Notes: generated by a model not told the origin, from the sequence alone. A stretch of 64,000 nucleotides of DNA from Thermoplasmatota archaeon (GCA_018818785.1 JAHIRF010000005.1:248001-312000), one strand, 5' to 3'. Shown: positions 37,462 to 63,393, counted from the first letter of the stretch. A program made the numbers and translations.

Positions 37462-37866
37462 ATGGCTACAGAATTTGAGCTGAGTGTGACTGGGTCGACA
37501 AGGAATATGTTGGATGCAATTGGTGTTCTCGCGGACAAACTGATCAATCTTGACACGATCGCCACCGCGAAGGTAGACGACAGATATGTGATCCGGTTCC
37601 TCACCGGATGCGAGGAGGAATGCAGGACAACGTTCATGAAGGCGGACCTGCCGTTCACAGAGAGGAAGGTCCTGGTTCTAGACGTCCACGACCGCCCTGG
37701 ACAATGGTTGAGAGCGGCACGGTGCCTGATGGATCAGGGCATTGAACTTGAGGAGAGCTATCTGCTCACGAAGACCAATGGCAAGCTCCGTTTCGTCTTC
37801 GGAGTGAGTGATTACCAACGCGCGAAGGCCATTGCCAGTCAGATGACGGATTGCTCCACTGATTGA
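37462..37866 (+). CDS. Tandem ACT-like domain protein
   Basis: 134 residues: two beta-alpha-beta halves, the second clearly ACT-like (RKVLVLDVHDRPGQWLRAAR, LEESYLLTKTNGKLRFVFGV). The first half (STRNMLDAIGVLADKLINLD) is related but more diverged. Small ACT proteins bind amino acids or other small effectors. It stands 33 bases before cooT and reads in the same direction, so it may sense a metabolite for the CODH/ACS genes. That link is positional only. Confidence 0.75.
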   Translation: MATEFELSVTGSTRNMLDAIGVLADKLINLDTIATAKVDDRYVIRFLTGCEEECRTTFMKADLPFTERKVLVLDVHDRPGQWLRAARCLMDQGIELEESYLLTKTNGKLRFVFGVSDYQRAKAIASQMTDCSTD

Positions 37867-37899: not shown

Positions 37900-38097
37900 A
37901 TGTGTGAGTCTGCAGTGTATCTTATGAAAGGCTCGGAGAAATCGTTGATCAAGGCCGAAACCTCGAAGATACTTATCGAGGACGGCATGGTGGTCTGCAT
38001 CGGGGCGTTCGGCGAGAAGATAGAGGTGGAGAACGCAGAGCTCTCCGAGATCAACCTGATGAAGCACGAGATCATACTGCGCCCCAAGAAGGGATGA
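37900..38097 (+). CDS. cooT: CooT-family nickel-binding protein
   Basis: 65 residues. MCESAVYLMKGSEKSLIKAE then VVCIGAFGEKIEVENAELSE and KHEIILRPKKG match CooT, a small homodimeric Ni(II)-binding protein where the N-terminal Cys (position 2) is the metal ligand. It takes part in nickel delivery to carbon monoxide dehydrogenase. The stop overlaps the cooC start by ATGA, supporting this role. Confidence 0.87.
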   Translation: MCESAVYLMKGSEKSLIKAETSKILIEDGMVVCIGAFGEKIEVENAELSEINLMKHEIILRPKKG

Positions 38098-38900
38098 GTC
38101 GGGGTCCCATGAAAGTGGCCGTAGTAGGCAAGGGTGGGGTCGGCAAGACCACAGTGGCCGGCTCAATGGCTAGGATCTGGGCCAGGGGTGGACTGCGAGT
38201 CTTGGCGGTCGATGCCGATCCAGCGGCACACCTCCATTCGGTTCTGGGTATAGCGCGTTCTGAGATGCCGCATCCGATTTCCGAGGAGCTTGATCTGATA
38301 GAGGAGCGGACCGGGGCAAGGCCCGGGACATCTCAAGGGCCTTTCTTCAAGCTCAATCCTAGGGTAGAGGATATCCCGGACAGGTATTCCAAGCTAGGAT
38401 CCGACGGAGTATCACTGCTCGTCACCGGGACCATAAAGGCTGCTGGCAGCGGCTGTTTCTGTCCCGAAAATGCCATCTTACGCAGCCTTCTCGAACACAT
38501 AATACTCGAGCGTGGTGACGCAGTGGTGGTCGACATGGAAGCCGGCCTGGAACAGTTCGGGCGCGCAACATGTCGTGGGGTTGACATGCTTCTTATCGTG
38601 ATAGAGCCAGGATCGAGGTCCATGGAGACGGCCGCCAGGATGGCCGAGCTCTCGCACGAGATGGGTGTCAAGAACATGTCCGTCGTCGCCAACCGTGTCA
38701 GGGGCAAGGAGGAAGCCGATGCTGTGGCAGAGCTCCTCGCCTCGCATTCGTTGAAGCTGGATTACGTTCTGCCATACTCCGAAGCGGTCGCCAAGGCCGA
38801 CATGCTCGGCATATCGCCATTGGACCACGGAGACGACAACGAGTGGCTCTCCTCCGTCCGACGATTATCGAACGGAATGCTAGGTTCAGACCGAATCTAG
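38094..38900 (+). CDS. cooC: CooC-type nickel-insertion ATPase (CODH accessory)
   Basis: 268 residues. Deviant Walker A VAVVGKGGVGKTT, DADPAAHLHSVLG, and the CxC motif in GSGCFCPENAILR (C121, C123) that binds nickel at the dimer interface. It matures the Ni-Fe-S active site of CODH using ATP. It overlaps cooT and precedes the CODH/ACS gene. A second ATG five codons in is a possible start. Distinct from the other CooC-like protein at 45699-46451. Confidence 0.92.
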   Translation: MSRGPMKVAVVGKGGVGKTTVAGSMARIWARGGLRVLAVDADPAAHLHSVLGIARSEMPHPISEELDLIEERTGARPGTSQGPFFKLNPRVEDIPDRYSKLGSDGVSLLVTGTIKAAGSGCFCPENAILRSLLEHIILERGDAVVVDMEAGLEQFGRATCRGVDMLLIVIEPGSRSMETAARMAELSHEMGVKNMSVVANRVRGKEEADAVAELLASHSLKLDYVLPYSEAVAKADMLGISPLDHGDDNEWLSSVRRLSNGMLGSDRI

Positions 38901-39256: not shown

Positions 39257-42200
39257 ATGGAGAAGGAGATAGGGTCCAGCAACAAGGGTGGCGCGAGTGC
39301 AAAATCATCATCGAAGTGGTCGTGCGACTGCTGGGATGAGAGTTGTCGGACCATGTTCACCGACGTTCACGATGAGGGTGTATGCACGGTCTTTGACCGT
39401 GTATCCGACCAGGGAGCGCAGTGCAGGTTCGGTTCGCTCGGACTCTGTTGCAGGATATGTCTGGAGGGCCCGTGCCGGATAAACCCTATGGGGAAGGAAC
39501 CGACGTCCGGGATATGCGGGGCTAAGGATTACACGATAGTCGCGCGAAACTTGGATAGGATGATCGTCGGGGGAACCGCATCCCATTCATGTCATGGGAA
39601 AGAGATATCCCATGTGCTCCTGGAGGTATCCGAGGGGAAGATCACTGATTACAGGGTCACCGATGAATCGAAGCTTGAAAAGGTGGCAGCGCGTCTTGGG
39701 ATCGATAAGCAAGGCAAGGGGATGCAGGCGATGGCCCGCGAGGTCGCCCTGGCTGCGATGGAGGATTATTCGAGATATTCTGCAGAGCCTCTCACTTTCC
39801 TGAGGACGACGGTGACCAAGTCCCGCATGGGGAACTGGGACTTCAATGCGGTGCTGCCTTCGAACATCAATACCACCATATCCGATCTGATGCACAGGAC
39901 GGCCATGGGGGTCGATGCCGACCCGGTTCCTCTCCTGTTCGGCGGAGTGAAGTGTGCTCTGGCGGACTACGCAGGCGCTCAGATATCGTCCGACCTGAGC
40001 GACATTCTGTTCGGCACGCCCAAGATCGTGCTCAGTGAAGTGAACCTCAATGTGCTCGAGAAGGATGCGGTCAATGTCGCTGTCCATGGTCACAACCCGC
40101 TCCTGAGCGACATAATGGTGGATGTGGCGCGAGAGATGACGGATGTCGCCAAGAGTGTAGGGGCGTCGCGCTTCAACATCGTGGGGGTGTGCTGCACAGG
40201 GAACGAGATACTCATGCGAAAGGGTGTGCCGATCGCTTCGAATGTGCTCTCCCAGGAACTGGTCGTCCTCTCCGGCATGCTGGATGCCATGGTCCTCGAC
40301 TACCAGTGCTTCATGCCGTCTCTCTCGTCTCTCACGAGATGCACCCACACCCGGTTGATATCCACCGAGGAGGTCGCGAGACTGGTGGGTGACACACACA
40401 TAGAGCTGACTCCGGGGCGTGCGCGAACCTCAGCGAAGGAGATACTCACGATAGCCGCGGAGGCTTTCAAGCATCGCACCGGAACGAGGACTTTGCCTGC
40501 CGCGAAGCCTCAGCGTGTAGTTGCCGGTTTCAGCCTCGAGCAGATGAGACAATTGTTCGCGACCAAGAATCCAGAGGACCCGTTTCAGCACTTGGTCGAC
40601 GGCATAATGCACGGCAGCATCCGGGGCATCGCGCTCTTCGCCGGCTGCAAGAGCACGAAGGCAAAGGATGACCGTGATGTGCTCACGATCGCCAAGGAGC
40701 TTCTGAAGCGGGATGTCCTCGTGATGGCGACTGGCTGCAACGCGATCGAGCTGGCCAAGGCAGGATTCATGGATCCAGACAAGGTCGGCGAGCTGGTCGG
40801 AGAGGGTCTTCAATCGTTCCTTTCAGAGCTAGCGAAGGCTGCTGATGTGAAAGGCGGGCTCCCGTGTGTATGGCATATCGGATCCTGCGTGGACAACCCG
40901 CGCTTCTCCAACCTGGCGACCGAGGTCGCCAACCGGCTGGACGTGGACATCGACAGGATCCCCTTCGTGGTGGCCGCCCCCGAGGCGATGCATGAGAAGG
41001 CCGTTTCTATAGGCACATGGGCGGTCACGATGGGCTTCCCCGTTCATGTGGGCACGATCAATTACATCTATGGCAGCACGCTCGTGACTGAAGTGTTGGA
41101 GAACACTGCGCGCGATGTCTTCGGAGGATATTTCATCTTCGAGAAGGACCCGCTCGAGGCCGCGAAGAGGATGTACTCCGCGATAGAGTACCGCCGTTGG
41201 AAACTCGATCTGTCGGATGCCGAGGTCGAGCGCGCGACCCATCTCGATGCGAAGAAGGGGACCGTCAAGAAGGAGGAGCTGTTCAAGATGGCGATCGAGG
41301 GATCGATAATCGCCACCGGCTACGCCGACCTGGTCCTGAGCCACGCGCTTCGGAAGCATGGTCCAGACAAGTTGGTGGAGTTCCCCGAGACTGGTTACCA
41401 GCTGCCGAGCATCTTCGCATGGCTTGGCAAGAACTGCAACCGTCTGGGCGACCTACCTCAGCTCCTCGGAGAGGCGAGGAGGAAGATCGTCGAGGAGCCC
41501 ACGTATGAAGCGGCTGTGGCTTCAGGCGAGGCCACGATGATAGCCGCCGAGATCGTGGAGGCTCTGAAGTACATAGACAACCCCGCGCCATACGAAGGCA
41601 CACCGTATTGCGGGTTCGTGCCAGACAGGATACTGCGACAGCTCGGGATAGCGTTCGTGGACGACACCATACCTGGAGCTGCGGTGTTCGTGGGACGGGC
41701 CAGCGACCCGAAGAAACTCTCGGCGATGATCCGTGATTGCCAGAACAAAGGCATGTTGATCGTCGCGAGCTATGACATCATCAAGCAGCTCAAGGACGAG
41801 AACATCTCCATGGGTCTCGACAGGATGCTCTACCCGGTGGGCGAGTTCACACAGATCATACACGGACTCAACTTCGCCATCAGGGCAGCGCTCTCATTCG
41901 GAGGCATCCAGAAGGGCGACAGGGAGGGACTCTCCAACTACCTGTCGAAGCGCCCCAAGGTGTTCGTTCTTCAGCTGGGGCCGCTCGACTTCATCAAGGT
42001 GGCAGCAGAGTTCGCTGTCCTGTTCAACGGGTCGCCGACCATAACGGACCAGGATGTGGAGCCGATCCCTGACAAGTATGTGGTGCAGAAGAACCTCGAT
42101 GAGATGATATCGACAGCGATAGAGGTGAGGGGCTGCAAGATCAAGCTCGGCGCCATGGATCTTCCCGTGCCTTATGGACCCGCCTTCGAAGGTGAGACCA

Positions 42201-43396
42201 TCAGGAGGCCGGACATGCATATCGAGGCCGGCGGCCCATCCAAGACTCTCGCATTCGAACTCCTCAGGATGCGCACATCGGAGGAGATAACCGACGGGAA
42301 CGTGACTCTGATCGGGAAGGACATCGACGAGATGGAGGAAGGCTCGTCGACCAACCTGGGGATATTCGTCAGCGTGTACGGCAAGAACATGCAGAAGGAT
42401 TTCGAATCCGTGCTGGAGCGCAGGATACACCAATTCGCCAACTTCGCGGAAGGGTTGTGGCACACGGGCCAGAGGAACCTCCTATGGGTCAGGATGAGCA
42501 AGACCTCGGTCAAGGCAGGGTTGAGGCTCAAGCACATCGGGGACATACTGGTCACGAAGCTCAAGCAGGAGTTCGGTGCCATCGTTTCGAAGATAGAGGT
42601 CACGATCGTCACAGACGAGGATGAGCTCAGGAAGCATCTCGACGAGGCGAAGATGGTCTATGCCGAGAGGGATGCCAGGATCGCCGACTTGGTGGACGAG
42701 AATGTCGACATATTCTACACCTGTACCTTGTGCCAGAGTTTCGCGCCCGGGCATGTATGCATCATCACGCCCGAGAGGCTGGGACTCTGTGGCGCCATCA
42801 ACTGGTTGGATGCGAAAGCGTCCTATCAGATAGCGCCGACCGGGCCGAACAGCCCGGTATCCAAGAAGGAGACCATAGACGAGGTCAAGGGCCAATGGAC
42901 GGGCGTGAACGAAGCGGTCAAGGAGAAGACCCAGGGCAAGCTGCAGCAGTTCAGCGCATACACCATGGTCGAGGACCCCATGACCTCATGCGGTTGTTTC
43001 GAATGCATAGTCGCGGTCTCGCCGGACCTCCAGGGGGTCGTGGTCGTGAACAGGGAACATGCTGGCATGACCCCGGTGGGCATGACCTTCTCGACGCTCG
43101 CAGGGTCCGTCGGAGGAGGGATACAGACGCCGGGGTTCATTGGCGTGGGCAGGAAATACCTCACCAGCAAGAAGTTCATCTCGGCAGACGGTGGTTTCAT
43201 CAGGATCGTCTGGATGCCCAAGAACCTCAAGGAGGCCATGAAGGACGAGCTGAAGAAACGGGCAGAGGAGATCGGGGTGCCCGACTTCCTGGATAAGATC
43301 GCGGACGAGAGCGTCGCGAGGACGCCTGACGAGCTGACTAGCTGGCTGGTCGAGGTGAACCATCCTGTCATGGGGATGTCACCGATGATCAAGTGA
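39257..43396 (+). CDS. Fused bacterial-type CO dehydrogenase / acetyl-CoA synthase (CooS/AcsA-AcsB)
   Basis: 1379 residues in one frame. Residues 1-650 are a bacterial-type CODH: B/D-cluster cysteines between C56 and C87 (LCCRICLEGPCRINP), C-cluster ligands in VHGHNP (about 278), GVCCTGNE (about 311), DYQCFMP (about 349), FAGCKSTK, ATGCNA and IGSCVDN. From about residue 665 it continues as a full AcsB, including the N-terminal CODH-binding domain that archaeal CdhC lacks (ATGYADLVLSHALRKHGPDK). A-cluster ligands C1156, C1159, C1168, C1178, C1245 and C1247 are all present. It reduces CO2 to CO and joins CO, methyl and CoA to acetyl-CoA, or the reverse. The fusion of the two subunits is unusual (see findings). 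Confidence 0.95.
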   Translation: MEKEIGSSNKGGASAKSSSKWSCDCWDESCRTMFTDVHDEGVCTVFDRVSDQGAQCRFGSLGLCCRICLEGPCRINPMGKEPTSGICGAKDYTIVARNLDRMIVGGTASHSCHGKEISHVLLEVSEGKITDYRVTDESKLEKVAARLGIDKQGKGMQAMAREVALAAMEDYSRYSAEPLTFLRTTVTKSRMGNWDFNAVLPSNINTTISDLMHRTAMGVDADPVPLLFGGVKCALADYAGAQISSDLSDILFGTPKIVLSEVNLNVLEKDAVNVAVHGHNPLLSDIMVDVAREMTDVAKSVGASRFNIVGVCCTGNEILMRKGVPIASNVLSQELVVLSGMLDAMVLDYQCFMPSLSSLTRCTHTRLISTEEVARLVGDTHIELTPGRARTSAKEILTIAAEAFKHRTGTRTLPAAKPQRVVAGFSLEQMRQLFATKNPEDPFQHLVDGIMHGSIRGIALFAGCKSTKAKDDRDVLTIAKELLKRDVLVMATGCNAIELAKAGFMDPDKVGELVGEGLQSFLSELAKAADVKGGLPCVWHIGSCVDNPRFSNLATEVANRLDVDIDRIPFVVAAPEAMHEKAVSIGTWAVTMGFPVHVGTINYIYGSTLVTEVLENTARDVFGGYFIFEKDPLEAAKRMYSAIEYRRWKLDLSDAEVERATHLDAKKGTVKKEELFKMAIEGSIIATGYADLVLSHALRKHGPDKLVEFPETGYQLPSIFAWLGKNCNRLGDLPQLLGEARRKIVEEPTYEAAVASGEATMIAAEIVEALKYIDNPAPYEGTPYCGFVPDRILRQLGIAFVDDTIPGAAVFVGRASDPKKLSAMIRDCQNKGMLIVASYDIIKQLKDENISMGLDRMLYPVGEFTQIIHGLNFAIRAALSFGGIQKGDREGLSNYLSKRPKVFVLQLGPLDFIKVAAEFAVLFNGSPTITDQDVEPIPDKYVVQKNLDEMISTAIEVRGCKIKLGAMDLPVPYGPAFEGETIRRPDMHIEAGGPSKTLAFELLRMRTSEEITDGNVTLIGKDIDEMEEGSSTNLGIFVSVYGKNMQKDFESVLERRIHQFANFAEGLWHTGQRNLLWVRMSKTSVKAGLRLKHIGDILVTKLKQEFGAIVSKIEVTIVTDEDELRKHLDEAKMVYAERDARIADLVDENVDIFYTCTLCQSFAPGHVCIITPERLGLCGAINWLDAKASYQIAPTGPNSPVSKKETIDEVKGQWTGVNEAVKEKTQGKLQQFSAYTMVEDPMTSCGCFECIVAVSPDLQGVVVVNREHAGMTPVGMTFSTLAGSVGGGIQTPGFIGVGRKYLTSKKFISADGGFIRIVWMPKNLKEAMKDELKKRAEEIGVPDFLDKIADESVARTPDELTSWLVEVNHPVMGMSPMIK

Positions 43397-43416
43397 TGTG
43401 TGTGGGGGATCGACAC

Positions 43417-44370
43417 ATGGGGTTTGAAGGAGCGAAAGAGAGTTTTTCGGGCCGGATCAAGGAGGTCGTCATAGGTGCTACAGACGAGCATGGCGGTAGC
43501 AGGAGCAGGCGGCTCACGGTGGGTGGATCGAACGGTCTTCCGTTCCATTCATTCGAGAGCGAGATGCCGCATAAGCCACTGATAGCCATGGACATTGTCG
43601 ATACGTTGCGCATGGTCTCCGACACGCAGCTGAAGTCCATGGGCGATGTCGTGAAGGACCCCGTGGAGTGGGCCAAGCGCTGTGAGAAGGAATGGGGCGC
43701 GGACATCTGTGTGCTGAAGCTGCAGTCGGCGAACCCCGAGGAGGAGAACCGTTCGGTCGAGGAGTGCGAGTCCCTCTTCAAGGAAGTCCTGAAGGCGGTG
43801 TCCCTTCCGCTCTTCGTATACGGGTGCGGGTTCGAGGAGAAGGATGCCAAGCTGATGGAGGCGATCTCGAACGCTGGCAAGGGCGAGCGCCTGTTCATCG
43901 GTCTGGCGGAGGAGAAGGCATACAAGTCCCTGACGGCTGCGGCCATGGCGAACGGCCATGGTCTGGTGGCCTTCTCGAACCTCGATATCAACCTCGCGAA
44001 ACAGATCAACATATTGCTGATGGATTTCGGCATGAAGCCCGAGAACATCCTCATGGACCCGCTCATGGCACCGCTCGGCATGGGTCTGGAATACTCATAC
44101 TCCGTCATCGAGCGCCTGCGAATAGGCGCCCTGATGGGTGACCCGGTCCTCCAGATGCCGATGATCTGCGATTGCTCATGTGCGTGGACCGTGCCAGAGG
44201 TGCTCGAGGAGGACGATGGCAAGGGGACGCAGGTGGAGCGAGGCGTCAATTGGGAGGTCATCACCGCCGAGGCCGCTCTGATGGCGGGAGCGGCCCTCGT
44301 CATAACCAGGCATCCAGAATCCGTCAAGCATATCAGGGCGACGATCGACGATCTCTACGGGGGTGTGTGA
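43417..44370 (+). CDS. acsD: Corrinoid iron-sulfur protein, small (delta) subunit
   Basis: 317 residues from the ATG with GGGGGAT seven bases before; earlier starts overlap the CODH/ACS stop. EMPHKPLIAMDIVDTLRMVS, KPENILMDPLMAPLGMGLEY and a TIM-barrel pattern identify AcsD/CdhD. With AcsC it carries the methyl group on cobalt to the A-cluster of acetyl-CoA synthase. It shows the short bacterial form without the long N-terminal part of archaeal CdhD. Immediately followed by acsC with no gap. Confidence 0.93.
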   Translation: MGFEGAKESFSGRIKEVVIGATDEHGGSRSRRLTVGGSNGLPFHSFESEMPHKPLIAMDIVDTLRMVSDTQLKSMGDVVKDPVEWAKRCEKEWGADICVLKLQSANPEEENRSVEECESLFKEVLKAVSLPLFVYGCGFEEKDAKLMEAISNAGKGERLFIGLAEEKAYKSLTAAAMANGHGLVAFSNLDINLAKQINILLMDFGMKPENILMDPLMAPLGMGLEYSYSVIERLRIGALMGDPVLQMPMICDCSCAWTVPEVLEEDDGKGTQVERGVNWEVITAEAALMAGAALVITRHPESVKHIRATIDDLYGGV

Positions 44371-45696
44371 ATGCCCACCGCGATGGAGATATACAAGCTT
44401 CTCCCGAAGAAGAACTGCGGAGAGTGCAAGTTCCCCACATGTCTGGCGTTCGCGATGCAGCTCGCGAACCAGAAGGTCGCCCTCGAAGCCTGTCCGTATG
44501 TCAGTCCCGAGGCGAAGGCCGCGCTCGAGGAGAGCGGCGCCCCGCCCATCAGGCTCATGACGTTCGGCACTGGTGACATGGCAGTCAAGGTCGGCGACGA
44601 GACCCAGCTGTTCAGGCACGACAAGACGTTCTACAACCCCACGGTGATAGGTCTCATAGCCGACGATTCCTCAGGGTCACAAGGGATCAAGGACGGGGTC
44701 GCACTTGTGAAGTCGCTGTCCTTCGAGAGAGTCGGACAGAACATACGTGTCAACTCGATCGCGATCAGGCATTCGACCGGGGACCCGAAAGAATTCCTGG
44801 AAGGTGTGAAGCACGCATCATCGGAGGGATTGCCGATGGTCCTGATGACCGAAGACCCGGGGCTGATGGGAGAGACGTCTGTCGCATGGCCCAAGAGGCC
44901 GTTGCTCTACAGGGCCACACCGGCCAACTTCGATGCGATGATCGAGGTGGCCAAGCGGTCTTCGTGCCCGCTCGTGATCGGGGGAGCAGCCACGCTTGAC
45001 GAGCTCTCGCAGCTGTCAGAGCGGGCGAAGAAGGCGGGAGTCACGGACCTCGTCCTCGAACCGGTTCAGGGCACGTGCGCCCAGCTCCTCGAGAGCATGA
45101 CAGTCGTGCGAAGGGCCGCTGTCAAGAAACATTTCCGCCCCTTGGGATATCCGACAATATCTGTGCTGGGGTCGTCTGATCTGGACAAGGGCAGGGCGAC
45201 GATCGGCGTGGCGAAGTACTCGTCCATCGTGCTCATGGACGAGCTGTCCAGAGGGTTCGTCTTCCCCCTCATGGTCCTCAGGCAGAACATCTTCACCGAC
45301 CCGCAGGTCCCCATCCAGGTGAAGCCCGGATTGTACAAGGTGGGAGAGCCGAACGAGAAGTCTCCCGTCATGTTCACGACCAACTTCTCCTTGACATACT
45401 TCACCGTGCGCGCAGACATCGAGAAGAGCAAGATGCCCGCCTGGCTTCTGGTGATAGACACCGAGGGTCAGTCCGTCATGACCGCGTTCGCGGCAGGGAA
45501 GCTCACGCCGGAGTCGGTCACGGAGGCGATAGAGAAGGAGAAGGTCAAGGATGTCAGCAAGAGGAACGAGATCGTGATCCCCGGGATGGTGAGCAGGATG
45601 AGCGGCAAGCTCAACGAGCTCTCGGGGATGAAGGTGATTGTCGGCTCGCGGGAGTCCTCAGGCATACCCAAGATGATCAAGTCATTCAGCGGATAG
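44371..45696 (+). CDS. acsC: Corrinoid iron-sulfur protein, large (gamma) subunit
   Basis: 441 residues. The N-terminal [4Fe-4S] domain has C16, C19, C24 and C41 (KKNCGECKFPTCLAFAMQ). A TIM barrel (TVIGLIADDSSGSQGI, PLVIGGAATLDELSQL) follows and then the C-terminal corrinoid-binding domain (WLLVIDTEGQSVMTAFAAGK, VIPGMVSRMSGKLNELSG). The iron-sulfur cluster re-reduces Co(II) to Co(I). Starts directly at the acsD stop, so it is translationally coupled. Length is normal. Confidence 0.95.
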   Translation: MPTAMEIYKLLPKKNCGECKFPTCLAFAMQLANQKVALEACPYVSPEAKAALEESGAPPIRLMTFGTGDMAVKVGDETQLFRHDKTFYNPTVIGLIADDSSGSQGIKDGVALVKSLSFERVGQNIRVNSIAIRHSTGDPKEFLEGVKHASSEGLPMVLMTEDPGLMGETSVAWPKRPLLYRATPANFDAMIEVAKRSSCPLVIGGAATLDELSQLSERAKKAGVTDLVLEPVQGTCAQLLESMTVVRRAAVKKHFRPLGYPTISVLGSSDLDKGRATIGVAKYSSIVLMDELSRGFVFPLMVLRQNIFTDPQVPIQVKPGLYKVGEPNEKSPVMFTTNFSLTYFTVRADIEKSKMPAWLLVIDTEGQSVMTAFAAGKLTPESVTEAIEKEKVKDVSKRNEIVIPGMVSRMSGKLNELSGMKVIVGSRESSGIPKMIKSFSG

Positions 45697-45698
45697 GC

Positions 45699-46451
45699 TC
45701 AGCGTCCCACCCGTTCAGATTCGACGGCCCTGCCGACATCGGAGAACGCGGGGTCGCTCGCTGGCATGTCCATGAGCGATTCAGTGTCCTTCGCGTGAGC
45801 GCACAGCCATGCCGACCCCCTCACGCTGTACACAGCATCGAACCTGTCACTCGAATATGACGACAGATCTTGTCCCTGGCCCAGCTGATCGACCACCAGG
45901 ACCGTCCTGGAGATGTTCAGGGCCATCTCCTCTGCGAGGTCCGCGATCCTGTTCGCGGCCGACAGCGACGATCTTGTCGTGTCGCAGAGGACGAACAGCA
46001 CCTCTGTGGACCGTGTGGTTCTCCTGCTGAGGTGTTCCATCCCTGCCTCGTTGTCTATCACGACATGATCGTATCTCTCCGAGATCGAATCGATGAGGTT
46101 GCGTAGCATGTTGTTTATGAAACAGTAACATCCGGGTCCTTCGGGTCTGCCCATCGTGAGCAGGTCGAAACCGTCTCCCTCCCTGAGCGCCAGCCTGACC
46201 TGGTAGTCTATGTATTCCTGTTTCGACATGCTGGGTGGCGGCTCCTCGCCGTAGGATGCCAGCTCCTCTCTTATGTCTCCTAGGGTCCTTCCAGGTCCTT
46301 GTCCGAGCTTCGCGCCGAGGTTGTGATTCGAGTCGGCATCCACCGCGAGCACGACCTTCCCTGTCTTCCTGTTTAGATGCCTTATCGCCATCGCGCAGAA
46401 CGTGGTCTTGCCAACTCCTCCCTTCCCGGCCACGGCTATCGTGTAGGTCAT
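45699..46451 (-). CDS. CooC-like nickel ATPase (second copy, AcsF-type)
   Basis: 250 residues. Walker A VAGKGGVGKTTF, DADSNHNLGAKLGQ, and a CxC motif in EGPGCYCFINNMLRNL. The sequence differs from the CooC at 38094 and carries a SRRTTRSTEVLFVLCDTTR segment. It is likely the ATPase that loads nickel into the acetyl-CoA synthase A-cluster (AcsF-type), but it could serve CODH. The ATG shares ATGA with the RACo stop. A longer frame upstream lies within RACo. Convergent with acsC, two bases apart. Confidence 0.88.
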   Translation of the reverse strand: MTYTIAVAGKGGVGKTTFCAMAIRHLNRKTGKVVLAVDADSNHNLGAKLGQGPGRTLGDIREELASYGEEPPPSMSKQEYIDYQVRLALREGDGFDLLTMGRPEGPGCYCFINNMLRNLIDSISERYDHVVIDNEAGMEHLSRRTTRSTEVLFVLCDTTRSSLSAANRIADLAEEMALNISRTVLVVDQLGQGQDLSSYSSDRFDAVYSVRGSAWLCAHAKDTESLMDMPASDPAFSDVGRAVESERVGR

Positions 46452-48358
46452 GCGACATCCCGCCAGTCGTTGGCATGGTTCGCACTGGGGAATCTTCCAA
46501 GATCCGTATGGGGGATGAACAGAGATGCGGAGAACTCCTCGTAGAATTCGTTGTCCACACTGAGTTCGAGATATGTCATCTTGTTCAGTATCTTCGATGT
46601 CTCCCGTCTCGCATCCTTCGATACCAGCGCCAGCTTCGCCCCTCCCAGAGCTCCGTTGCCTATGAACCTGTACTTCTTCCTGGGAACATCCGGGAACATC
46701 CCCAGAGTCACGGCCCTGGTCATGTCCAGATGGAAGCCGAACCCTCCAGCGATGACTATGCTCGACAGGCTCCCCAGATCCTTCCCGGTCTTCCGCAACA
46801 ATACGGAGCACGCGCCGTAGATGGCCGCCTTCGTCCTCAGGATGTTCTGCAGGTCCGCATCCGTTATCACGAGGTCCGAGGTGGCTCCTTCATGGAGACG
46901 CTCCTTCCTCTCTATGACATATTCCAGGCCTTCTTCACCGGTTCTCACCCTGTCACTGTCCCTTTCCTGTATCCTGGCCTTGCGGTCTATCACGCCTCTC
47001 GCATACATCTCCGCCATCAGGTCGACCAGGCCTGACCCGCAGACACCGATCGGGGCCCGGTCTCCTATCACATGATATTTCGCAGCGAGATCATCGTCTA
47101 TCCTGAGCCTGTCTATCGCGCCGTCCATCGCCCTCACGCCGCAGGTGACCTCTCCCCCTTCGAACGCTGGTCCGGCCGAGCAAGAGCATGAGACCATCCA
47201 ATCCCTGCATCCGAGGACCACCTCTCCGTTGGTGCCCACATCGATCAGGAGATGAGTCCTCTTCGATCTGTGCATCTCACTGGCCAACACATCCGCGATG
47301 ACGTCCCCTCCTACATACCCTGCTCTGGAGGGGAAGGTGAAGACCGAACCCGCTCCGTTCATCATCAATCCGAGGTCTTTGGCCTTCATCGGGGGAATGT
47401 GGTGAGTCACCGGGACGTACGGCTCCAGTCGGACATTGTCCGTCGATAGTCCGAGGAAGAACTGCGTCATCACGGTATTGCCCGCAATCGATGCAGCCAC
47501 GATGTCCTGTCGTGAGAGGCGCTCGCCGTCCATCTCATTCCGTTCCTCCATGACTCTGCTTATGCACGAGTTCACCGTCTCTCTCGCCAATGACGTGAGT
47601 TCATCCAGTCCGTTTTCCTCACCGAACATCATTCTGGCAATCACATCATCGCCATGTGTCATCTGTCTGTTGAAGTCTGAAGCCGTCCCCAGAACCTCTC
47701 CTGTGTCGAGGTCGATGAGGTCGACGACGACCGTGGTCGTCCCTATGTCGACCGCGATCCCGACCGCACTCCCCCTTGTGTCCCCTGGCTCCACTCTGAT
47801 TATCTCCACGGGCCCCGCCAGATCGGACCGGGTCGCAGTGACCTTCCATCTCCCGTCCCTCAACGCGGACGGCAGGTCTCTGAGACCTTCGAGCGAGATC
47901 TCGGGCCGTGCATCGTCCATCGCACGCATCATCCTCTCTCGGTCCGCCAGGTTATCGGAGAGCGTCGCAGGATTCATCTCCAGGAAGCGTTTGGTCACCC
48001 AGGGGGTCGTCCGCTCAGGCATCTTCTGTACCGATTTCGTCACTATCTGGTGCTTTCCGAGCCTGTACCTCGGCAGCACATGGACGATCAGATCCCCTTC
48101 TATTCTGGAAGTGCATGCGAGTGCGATGCCTTCTCGAACCTCTTCTTCTGTCAGATGTTCGGACCCTTCGGTGATGGTCTTTCCGTCTATCTTCACCTTG
48201 CAGCGTCCGCACTTGCCGCTCCCACCGCATACCGCATCGATCGGTATGCATGCCAGTCTGCCTGCCTCCAGCACTGTCGTTCCCCTATCGACGGTAACCT
48301 GCTTTCCATCCGGTCGGAACACCACCCTCAGATTGTTCCGCCCTTCGTCAGCTGTCAT
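46448..48358 (-). CDS. Reductive activator of corrinoid iron-sulfur protein (RACo)
   Basis: 636 residues. N-terminal [2Fe-2S] ferredoxin with C44, C50, C53 and C82 (DAVCGGSGKCGRCKV). A linker, then an ASKHA ATP-binding domain of the DUF4445 type (VGIAVDIGTTTVVVDLIDLD, HLLIDVGTNGEVVLG, IVIAGGFGFHLDMTRAVTLG). It uses ATP to drive reduction of inactive Co(II) corrinoid protein. It is coupled to the CooC-like gene and divergent from acsE. Length and domains match bacterial RACo (AcsV). Confidence 0.93.
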   Translation of the reverse strand: MTADEGRNNLRVVFRPDGKQVTVDRGTTVLEAGRLACIPIDAVCGGSGKCGRCKVKIDGKTITEGSEHLTEEEVREGIALACTSRIEGDLIVHVLPRYRLGKHQIVTKSVQKMPERTTPWVTKRFLEMNPATLSDNLADRERMMRAMDDARPEISLEGLRDLPSALRDGRWKVTATRSDLAGPVEIIRVEPGDTRGSAVGIAVDIGTTTVVVDLIDLDTGEVLGTASDFNRQMTHGDDVIARMMFGEENGLDELTSLARETVNSCISRVMEERNEMDGERLSRQDIVAASIAGNTVMTQFFLGLSTDNVRLEPYVPVTHHIPPMKAKDLGLMMNGAGSVFTFPSRAGYVGGDVIADVLASEMHRSKRTHLLIDVGTNGEVVLGCRDWMVSCSCSAGPAFEGGEVTCGVRAMDGAIDRLRIDDDLAAKYHVIGDRAPIGVCGSGLVDLMAEMYARGVIDRKARIQERDSDRVRTGEEGLEYVIERKERLHEGATSDLVITDADLQNILRTKAAIYGACSVLLRKTGKDLGSLSSIVIAGGFGFHLDMTRAVTLGMFPDVPRKKYRFIGNGALGGAKLALVSKDARRETSKILNKMTYLELSVDNEFYEEFSASLFIPHTDLGRFPSANHANDWRDVA

Positions 48359-48499: not shown

Positions 48500-49276
48500 T
48501 TGATAGTCGTGGGTGAGAGGATCAACGGACAATTTCCTCTGGTTTCGAAAGCGATAGATGCCAGGGACGAGAAGACGATTCAGGGCATGGCGTTGGAACA
48601 GATATCTGCAGGAGCGGACGTCCTCGACGTGAACACTGGTCCGGGGAGGGATGACGGTCCTGAAGCCATGGCCTGGCTCGTCAAGACCATCCAGGACGCG
48701 GTCGATATACGGCTTGCGATCGATTCTCCGGGGTTGAAGGTTCAGCAGGCAGGCTTGACGGCGTGCAAGCGCACGCCTCTGATCAACTCCACGACTGCCG
48801 AGGAGAAGCGCATGGAGAAGTTCTTCCCATTGGCTCTCGAACACAATGCAGAGATCGTCTGCCTGACGATAAACGAGAAAGGCATTCCCAATTCTGTGGA
48901 TGGACGGACGGAGACTGCGATGCTCCTGCTCACAAATGCCATGGACAAAGGGATCCCACCAGAGAACCTGTATCTGGACCCGGTCGTGCTGCCGATCACA
49001 GCCGCTCAGGATCAGTGCCCCGTCGTCTGCGACGCCATCACTGCGTTCAGGGCACTCAACACTCCTCCTCCAAAGACAATAGTCGGGCTGAGCAATGTAT
49101 CAAGCGGCGCGGAGGAGCGCAACCTGCTGAACAGGACATATCTCGGCATGCTCCTCGGTCGCGGTCTGGACGCTGCGATCGTTGACCCGCTCGACCTCGA
49201 GTTGGTCAAGGAGCTCAAGGCCGCCGAGGTCCTGTTGAACCACAAGCTGTACGCCCATTCGTTCCTGAGGGCATGA
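48500..49276 (+). CDS. acsE: Methyltetrahydrofolate:corrinoid protein methyltransferase
   Basis: 258 residues, normal for AcsE/MeTr. IVVGERINGQFPLVSKAI, GADVLDVNTGPGRDDGPEAM, RLAIDSPGLKVQQAGL and IVGLSNVSSGAEERNLLNRT are pterin-binding TIM barrel motifs. It moves the methyl group from methyl-tetrahydrofolate (or methyl-tetrahydromethanopterin, to be shown) to the Co(I) of AcsCD. Archaeal CODH/ACS complexes usually lack this enzyme. TTG start with AAGGGGG upstream. Divergent from RACo; the following gene overlaps by ATGA. Confidence 0.93.
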   Translation: MIVVGERINGQFPLVSKAIDARDEKTIQGMALEQISAGADVLDVNTGPGRDDGPEAMAWLVKTIQDAVDIRLAIDSPGLKVQQAGLTACKRTPLINSTTAEEKRMEKFFPLALEHNAEIVCLTINEKGIPNSVDGRTETAMLLLTNAMDKGIPPENLYLDPVVLPITAAQDQCPVVCDAITAFRALNTPPPKTIVGLSNVSSGAEERNLLNRTYLGMLLGRGLDAAIVDPLDLELVKELKAAEVLLNHKLYAHSFLRA

Positions 49277-49929
49277 GGTGGACCGTGATGATCGGGGGCA
49301 GGGACAGCCATGACGATGCTCTTCGGGTCGGATGGGACAGTCTGAAAGAGTGCGGCATCAGCGAGTTCTCCCCTGCTGGAGCGACGGTGGACACAGACGC
49401 TTCTCAGCTGAGACTGAAGGTGATGGATCGCATCTGCACGATCGACCTCAGCTCGGAGAGGATGAGCTACGAAGATGGTGAACGGGAAGAGGTCAGCGCC
49501 TACCTCCGGATACTGATCCTTCATTATCTAGTGGGTGCGAGGGACAAGTCTCCATCGGGTGCCATGGTCTCATTCAGGGAGTTCGAGGGCGGTGCGCTCT
49601 ACTACTCCGCATTCAAGAAGAGGACGATCGATGTTCTGACTGGCACATTCGGTGATGACGCCGATAGCCTTCGGAGAGCTGGCGAAAGGTTGGGGGCGAC
49701 CACACTCATGAGTGGGTCCGTATCGTTCCGTGTGATGTTCTTCCCAAAGCTCCCGGTCGACGTGTTGTTTTGGCTGGGTGACGAGGAGGTACCATCATCC
49801 GCGAACATACTCTTCGACGAGACCGCGGGGAAGATGATCGCGACCGAAGACCTGTCCGCACTCGCAGGCGTCCTATGTATCCGATTGATCAAATCGTCGT
49901 CCAAGGCCGAGCCTGTCGGATCGAAATAG
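49273..49929 (+). CDS. DUF3786 protein, CODH/ACS-linked
   Basis: 218 residues. AYLRILILHYLVGARDKSPS, VSFREFEGGALYYSAFKKRT, FFPKLPVDVLFWLGDEEVPS and ANILFDET match DUF3786, a family of unknown reaction that often lies near corrinoid or acetyl-CoA pathway genes in anaerobes. The start shares ATGA with the acsE stop, so it is made together with AcsE. A role in corrinoid protein handling or methyl transfer is inferred. Confidence 0.82.
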   Translation: MRWTVMIGGRDSHDDALRVGWDSLKECGISEFSPAGATVDTDASQLRLKVMDRICTIDLSSERMSYEDGEREEVSAYLRILILHYLVGARDKSPSGAMVSFREFEGGALYYSAFKKRTIDVLTGTFGDDADSLRRAGERLGATTLMSGSVSFRVMFFPKLPVDVLFWLGDEEVPSSANILFDETAGKMIATEDLSALAGVLCIRLIKSSSKAEPVGSK

Positions 49930-62175: not shown

Positions 62176-63393
62176 ATGCTCCACAGAGCGGTAGTGTTCC
62201 ACATTCATGGCGAGCTACCATTTGAGGCTACGATGCTCATGGAGGATTTCCGCCTGGCAGTCAACTCTGCGATCAGAGCGGGCCTAAATGCGAAGGTCAC
62301 CTCCAGGAATGCCCTGGCGAAGCTTGCGTACAAGGACTTCAGGAAAGAGCATCCGAACATGTATGCCCAGCATCTGGTATCCTCGTTCGAGGTCGCGGGT
62401 TCGGTGCTGAAGAACCTGCGAAGGCGTTGGGGGAAGGGCCCGACCCATCGCATTCCATATGTGCGTCGACTGATGATGAAGGCGGAGAACCAGGCATACA
62501 AGCTCGATCGAGAGAATGGCGTGATCGACCTTCCTATACGGGCAGGATGTCATGTGAAGCTGAGGCTCGTCCTGAGCGATTACCATCGCATCTATCTGAA
62601 CGACAGAACTCTCTCTCTTGGTTCACTGACCCTACTTCCAGACAGAGTCATAATAGCCTTCAGGAAGAGCCTGCCTGAATCATACATTCCAGAGACGGCC
62701 CTGTCTCTGGATACCAATGAACGATCCTTGGACGGCGTGTTACTGAGCGAAGATGAGTGCCTGCCAGTCCAGGCCGCGTATCCCGATGTCCCGATAATCC
62801 AGGCACGGCATCATGACCAGCGCAGGAGCCTCCAGAAGAAGAAGGCGCACGACCGGCGGACATCGAGGCGGTTGTGTCGCAGAGAGGGGAAGAGAGAGCG
62901 TCATCGGATCGAGTATCGCATGCACCAGGTGGCCAATGCGGTCCTCGGCTTCGCGGAGGAGCATAAATCGACGATTGTGCTCGAGGATCTGAGTTGGATG
63001 ACAGCGCGTAAGCGCGGCAAATCGCTCAACAGGCGGTTGAACTCATGGCCTCGGAGGAAGCTTCACGACTTCATCGAGTACAAGGCAGCCTGGAAAGGCG
63101 TGCCAGTCATCAAGGTGGACCCATACAACAGCAGCAGGAGGTGCCCAATATGTAGGAGATTGAATCATTCCCGAATGGGCGCCGATTTCGAGTGTGAGTG
63201 CGGTTGGTGTGCCGACAGGCATGTCAACGCTGGCATAAACCTGCTGCAGACAGCCTTCCCAGAAGGGATGGCAGGGGGCTTACGGTTCAGCCCCGGCGCG
63301 TTCCAGCATGACGTGGTGATGACCCTCTACGACCCAGAGATGGGCGCACGGTTGGAGCCGAATGGGACGAGTCGATCGGTGGTTCAGTCATGA
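62176..63393 (+). CDS. tnpB: TnpB-type RNA-guided nuclease homolog (IS200/IS605 OrfB)
   Basis: 405 residues. RuvC-I Asp D179 in ALSLDTNERSLDG, RuvC-II Glu E270 in IVLEDLSWM, and the zinc finger with C323/C326 (RRCPICRRLNH) and C340/C342/C345 (FECECGWC). RuvC-III reads CADRHVNAGINLL: the position that is Asp in the usual RDxNA motif is His349, so nuclease activity is in doubt unless D347 takes over. N-terminal helical and wedge regions appear complete, so it is not a truncated relic. A guide RNA, if made, would overlap the 3' end and the right repeat. Confidence 0.92.
   Translation: MLHRAVVFHIHGELPFEATMLMEDFRLAVNSAIRAGLNAKVTSRNALAKLAYKDFRKEHPNMYAQHLVSSFEVAGSVLKNLRRRWGKGPTHRIPYVRRLMMKAENQAYKLDRENGVIDLPIRAGCHVKLRLVLSDYHRIYLNDRTLSLGSLTLLPDRVIIAFRKSLPESYIPETALSLDTNERSLDGVLLSEDECLPVQAAYPDVPIIQARHHDQRRSLQKKKAHDRRTSRRLCRREGKRERHRIEYRMHQVANAVLGFAEEHKSTIVLEDLSWMTARKRGKSLNRRLNSWPRRKLHDFIEYKAAWKGVPVIKVDPYNSSRRCPICRRLNHSRMGADFECECGWCADRHVNAGINLLQTAFPEGMAGGLRFSPGAFQHDVVMTLYDPEMGARLEPNGTSRSVVQS

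Follow-up and report, generated by a model that had tools for sequence, protein, structure and literature searches.

A single-chain CO dehydrogenase/acetyl-CoA synthase encoded in archaea of the class Thermoplasmata

A stretch of 64,000 nucleotides from a Thermoplasmatota archaeon (GCA_018818785.1, JAHIRF010000005.1:248001-312000; hereafter, the window) carries a gene in which a CO dehydrogenase (CODH) and a bacterial-type acetyl-CoA synthase (ACS; AcsB) are joined in one continuous frame. Very probably, the only CODH/ACS of the host is this product, a functional single-chain enzyme encoded in a bacterial-type gene cluster and derived either from one fusion with a later split or from two fusions. 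The coordinates of the relevant features are given in Table 1.

The fused gene and its two halves

The frame comprises 1379 residues plus a stop codon, with zero internal stops, and matches both family profiles in the expected order. The anaerobic CODH catalytic-subunit profile TIGR01702 was matched over its full length by residues 27–651 (663 bits against a cutoff of 478), and the AcsB profile NF040764 was matched at positions 1–705 of 705 by residues 680–1378 (964 bits against a cutoff of 800). The Pfam domains along the chain were Prismane (63–632), CODH_A_N (694–773), CdhC (969–1123), and ACS_CODH_B_C (1135–1378). The nearest solved structures were CODH-II/AcsA for residues 24–659 and the AcsB proteins of Carboxydothermus hydrogenoformans and Moorella thermoacetica for residues 672–1378. 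A chance open reading frame was ruled out by the profile scores.

In the case of the CODH half, the D/B-cluster cysteines (Cys56, 64, 65, 68, 73, and 87), the C-cluster ligands (His279 and Cys313, 351, 464, 494, and 544), and the acid–base residues His110 and Lys581 are all present, at positions that we take to correspond to those of C. hydrogenoformans CODH-II, from which the numbering was transferred. These residues are retained in nearly all fused proteins, and the A-cluster cysteines of the AcsB half (Cys1156, 1159, 1168, 1178, 1245, and 1247) are invariant across seven of them. The AcsB half includes the A1 N-terminal domain (CODH_A_N), which is absent from methanogen CdhC. The original prediction had described an uninterrupted frame with two complete halves, six A-cluster cysteines, a charged linker near residue 650, and an AcsB of bacterial type with its CODH-binding N-terminal domain, and every one of these points was recovered; the linker is the junction listed in Table 1. 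The D-cluster is of type II, with the spacing Cys-(X)7-CysCys, following the definition in PMC6344411.

Three additional cysteines (Cys23, 25, and 30; window 39323–39346) precede the CODH core in only some genera of the family. They resemble the Cys motif at the N-terminus of structural groups E-3/F-2 described in PMC6344411.

Table 1. Coordinates of the fused gene, its parts, neighbouring genes, and related loci with a reduced CODH half.
Feature	Position	Strand	Basis and remarks
Fused acsA-acsB gene, single-chain CODH/ACS, 1379 aa	39257..43396	+	Open frame, Pfam and profile matches, recurrence in relatives
CODH half, residues 1–655	39257..41221	+	Type II D-cluster, B-/C-cluster ligands, acid–base His110/Lys581; fold match to CODH-II (Z 59, 617 residues aligned)
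Junction, 26 residues; charged, ordered in model, more variable than any other segment	41201..41278	+	RRW648 (last CODH helix) to LFK675 (first AcsB helix)
AcsB half: CODH-binding A1, A2, and A3 with six A-cluster cysteines	41279..43393	+	Profiles, cysteines; A1 fold match (Z 38) to residues 19–324 of C. hydrogenoformans AcsB
Small conserved ORF, 134 aa, just upstream of CooC	37462..37866	+	55–72% identical in relatives
CooC-type nickel-insertion ATPase	38094..38900	+	phmmer 1.8e-40 to CooC 3kje
AcsD, corrinoid iron–sulfur protein small subunit	43393..44370	+	GTG start, 4-nt overlap with fusion stop; profile match
AcsC, corrinoid iron–sulfur protein large subunit	44371..45696	+	Pfam and profile match
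Second CooC/AcsF-like ATPase, start approximate	45699..46457	-	Same place in relatives
AcsV/RACo-type corrinoid reductive activator	46448..48358	-	Pfam and profile match
AcsE, methyltetrahydrofolate:corrinoid protein methyltransferase	48500..49276	+	1e-67 to Moorella AcsE 2e7f; Pterin_bind
DUF3786 protein	49273..49929	+	Pfam; 4-nt overlap with acsE
Stub-ACS loci	L021:781-3846, L134-L138, L139, L141-L144		N-terminal CODH-like extension

Host, gene neighbourhood, and pathway

The host, on which the original prediction was silent, belongs to the archaeal class Thermoplasmata and carries a bacterial-type CODH/ACS. A chloroflexot (Dehalococcoidia) host was also considered and rejected on account of the named relatives, which are Thermoplasmata/Euryarchaeota MAGs, and of the archaeal eL32. 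Its genome is 94.5% complete, encodes the archaeal ribosomal protein eL32, and contains the fusion as its sole Prismane-family CODH and sole CdhC-family ACS. With CooC, AcsD, AcsC, AcsV, and AcsE, the bacterial-type cluster around the fused gene is complete. Its gene order is kept throughout the family, and the AcsD/AcsC/CooC2/AcsV/AcsE block was also found in two other fused loci (L039 and L051) and in an unfused archaeal locus (L063). The genome further encodes the formate–tetrahydrofolate ligase (Fhs) of the tetrahydrofolate (H4F) branch, and McrA was not found in it. The gene set represents a Wood–Ljungdahl carbonyl branch of bacterial type, combined with a methyl branch that uses tetrahydrofolate. 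PMC11264602 reports acsA-E and an H4F branch, with no MCR, for Ca. Gimiplasmatales/COMBO-56-21, an order of Thermoplasmata that has these features in common with the host.

The small ORF upstream of CooC gave zero family matches in Pfam and profile searches; by eye it is ACT-like, and it is possibly regulatory. Elsewhere in the window, a gene for a TnpB-type RNA-guided endonuclease lies at 62176–63393 (NCBIfam NF040570 below the cut-off, TIGR01766 above).

Recurrence and distribution of the fusion

The complete fusion in a single frame was found in 21 of the 400 Thermoplasmata genomes sampled, counting genomes with the full query span and an open frame of at least 1362 residues. These genomes span five families (f1, to which the window belongs, f16, f20, f30, and f32) and include four single-contig assemblies (G005, G007, G034, and G044). 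In three more f1 genomes (G001, G002, and G013), the fusion is interrupted by contig ends or a frame break. The junction varies by family in sequence and length, yet it is open in all fused genomes, and it is the least conserved segment of the protein when the window is compared with its family. In the same comparison, codon position 3 carries most of the differences in the CODH and AcsB halves alike; thus, both halves are under purifying selection. In two single metagenome-assembled genomes (MAGs), a frame change breaks the fusion (L035:5911-10207, UBA9653; L045:5815-9904, fen_3), which may be a sequencing error or a real mutation.

The distribution was also evaluated by a GTDB scan, in which the best 80 of 229 relatives were examined. 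Within these 80, the named relatives are MAGs labelled Thermoplasmata or 'Euryarchaeota' archaeon, and all fused loci are archaeal. No fusion was found in the bacteria among them; every bacterial locus with both genes has acsA and acsB as separate, adjacent frames. L063 is archaeal yet unfused. The fusion is no one-off, as it occurs in at least five Thermoplasmata families. It is rare overall but lineage-wide in this group.

An AcsA–AcsB fusion was not described in the literature searched, outside of which lay Adam et al. 2018 and Supplementary Table 1 of PMC6344411; according to the latter paper, that table lists Ni-CODH fusions. The main text of PMC11264602 does not mention a fusion for the acsA-E genes of Ca. 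Gimiplasmatales. This covalent, lineage-specific CODH/ACS is apparently undescribed, and an earlier description may exist.

Predicted structure and proposed reaction

The AlphaFold2 model of residues 26–1000 (pTM 0.87) showed a confident two-domain arrangement with an ordered junction (pLDDT blocks 81–94), and fold comparison of the model matched its CODH part to CODH-II and its A1 domain to AcsB (Table 1). The link from the CODH C-terminus to A1 measures 26 residues in the window and about 18 in f20 and f30. Because the chain is continuous, A1 of AcsB cannot leave CODH, and only A3 can swing to the corrinoid protein. The model fits an A1 domain docked in cis with A3 as the only mobile part, a geometry in which a tunnel would connect the two halves. 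The covalent link would fix both the stoichiometry and the tunnel entrance, as originally proposed.

In the proposed reaction, the C-cluster of the CODH half would interconvert CO2 and CO, and CO would travel inside the protein, through a tunnel, to the A-cluster in the AcsB half. There, CO, a methyl group from AcsCD, and CoA would be combined into acetyl-CoA, or the reverse reaction would take place. AcsCD would receive its methyl group through AcsE from methyl-tetrahydrofolate and be re-activated by AcsV. Two fused chains presumably dimerise via the CODH half. The flux may be acetogenic or acetate-oxidising, and the gene content is compatible with either.

Alternative explanations

Bacterial acsA and acsB lie next to each other at a short distance, such that one indel could fuse them, and an assembly error or a chimaera might have joined two neighbouring genes in the window. 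However, the same open junction recurs in 21 genomes that were assembled independently, at identities as low as about 52–58% and in all four single-contig assemblies, and the codons at the junction vary without stops. An artefact of this kind can practically be dismissed, and the sequences confirm the fusion as real and inherited in the lineage. The fused gene might also yield free AcsB, and perhaps free CODH, through initiation at Met678 or cleavage at the junction, in which case the usual two-chain complex would do the work. The window does contain an in-frame ATG at 41288 (Met678) with GGAGG 11 nt upstream, and a variable junction is consistent with an exposed loop. However, this Shine–Dalgarno-like motif is missing in other members of the window's family, and f16-type fusions as well as some from f20 have Lys in place of Met678; the internal initiation site is therefore not a conserved feature. 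With the frame open in all five families and the junction ordered in the model, the production of free subunits is unlikely.

It might further be argued that the CODH half is a pseudo-enzyme that serves as a scaffold while the ACS takes CO from elsewhere. A precedent exists in a relative of the window (G300, described below), in which this half has kept its full length and lost its B-, D-, and several C-cluster ligands. By contrast, the CODH half of the window has each ligand and acid–base residue and is under purifying selection, and a second CODH is absent from the genome, which leaves a non-catalytic scaffold very improbable here. The preferred explanation is still the functional single-chain enzyme.

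Comparison with known CODH/ACS systems

The fused protein shares its protein families, ligands, A1/A2/A3 layout, and accessory genes with the AcsA and AcsB subunits of the α2β2 complexes of M. thermoacetica and C. hydrogenoformans. It differs from the bacterial complex in being one chain rather than two, in its archaeal host, and in its sequence, which is about 45–50% identical to bacterial loci; in place of two separate subunits, a continuous frame was found in 21 genomes. The methanogen ACDS (CdhA and CdhC) has the same chemistry, but its chains are separate, whereas those of the window are joined. The CdhA profile TIGR00314 gave 56.6 bits against a cutoff of 781, and a methanogen-type ACDS was ruled out by profile and domain layout. 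According to cryo-EM of the Methanosarcina thermophila enzyme, methanogen CdhC lacks A1 and a domain of CODH takes its role, and the ACS of methanogens has been proposed to depart from CODH for methylation; in Moorella, ACS is bound by N- and C-terminal extensions of CODH (PMC11474084). Detachment in the manner of ACDS would not be fully possible in a covalent chain.

Origin of the fusion

The closest proteins on the trees are the unfused L063, f15, and f19, in which acsA and acsB occupy two separate, neighbouring frames and of which L063 has the same gene order as the window. In the ACS tree, rooted on bacteria, L063 and then f15/f19 diverge before a clade with all fused proteins (node 87/72, unstarred), a topology that favours a single origin of the fusion. 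In the concatenated CODH and ACS tree, the unfused f15/f19 cluster with the f16-type fusions (98/96), and a single fused clade is compatible with this tree (AU p 0.121). There was therefore either one fusion with a later split in f15/f19 or two fusions. The best explanation is that a bacterial-type CODH/ACS entered the lineage and that its genes were fused within or near Thermoplasmata.

Decay of the CODH half in relatives

Among relatives, the CODH half forms a series: intact, full length without clusters, a ligand-free stub of ~275 residues, and none. The ACS genes in the decayed states branch from within the clade that the fused proteins form on the ACS tree. The full-length fusion of G300 (L119:1228-5340) has a CODH half 35% identical to that of the window, which lacks the B-/D-cluster cysteines, His279, Cys313, Cys351, and Lys581; one base in the locus is ambiguous, and part of another CODH lies on a second contig of that genome.

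ACS frames of 987–1036 residues were found in genus g33 of f20 (six loci), in f33 (one), and in genus g59 of f6 (four), each with 250–330 additional N-terminal residues and none of the CODH ligand set. In profile–profile comparison, the g33 extension matched CODH with a probability of 95.6 and an E value of 1.1e-8, in a colinear alignment to the C-terminus of CODH, and the g59 extension matched with a probability of 84.5. The AlphaFold2 model of the g33 extension is confident (pLDDT 87, pTM 0.87) and was aligned to CODH by VIA-align (Z 20.2, rmsd 2.8), with the 233 aligned residues spread over positions 77–636 of CODH-II; thus, the extension looks like a CODH without an internal stretch. A Foldseek search with the g33 stub gave zero matches below E 0.001.

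Stand-alone ACS was found in f29 and in some f20 and f6 genomes, several of which have a distant CODH (~40%) elsewhere. In G155 (L131; single contig, 99% complete), the ACS stands alone, and a CODH match was not found in the genome at E 1e-60. A second Thermoplasmata CODH clade, ~40% identical (L145-L152, L154, L155, and L159), has Ser at the aligned second D-cluster Cys and often occurs in genomes with stand-alone or stubbed ACS.

For the lineages with a stub, the sequence in which these states branch on the tree supports a loss that followed the fusion, and the same course may apply to those without one. As related genomes can retain ACS after their CODH half has decayed, the link is not essential. 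Taken together, we lean slightly towards a distinct CODH/ACS architecture in which ACS never leaves CODH: after fusion in Thermoplasmata, the CODH half would have become dispensable and been converted step by step into a metal-free structural domain of ACS, while an unrelated CODH took its place or was lost.

Implications

CODH/ACS ranks among the most ancient enzymes of carbon fixation, and a natural covalent chain bears directly on the question of whether ACS must detach from CODH for methyl transfer; if the fused chain works, full detachment would be needless in the bacterial-type enzyme. Expression of CODH/ACS is hampered in practice by unequal subunits and by incomplete assembly, and the fused chain offers a single-gene expression target. 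The decay series illustrates what persists of CODH once only a non-catalytic role remains. If the proposed stepwise loss is correct, these archaea would provide naturally occurring intermediate forms in which the tethering and the catalytic roles of CODH are uncoupled.
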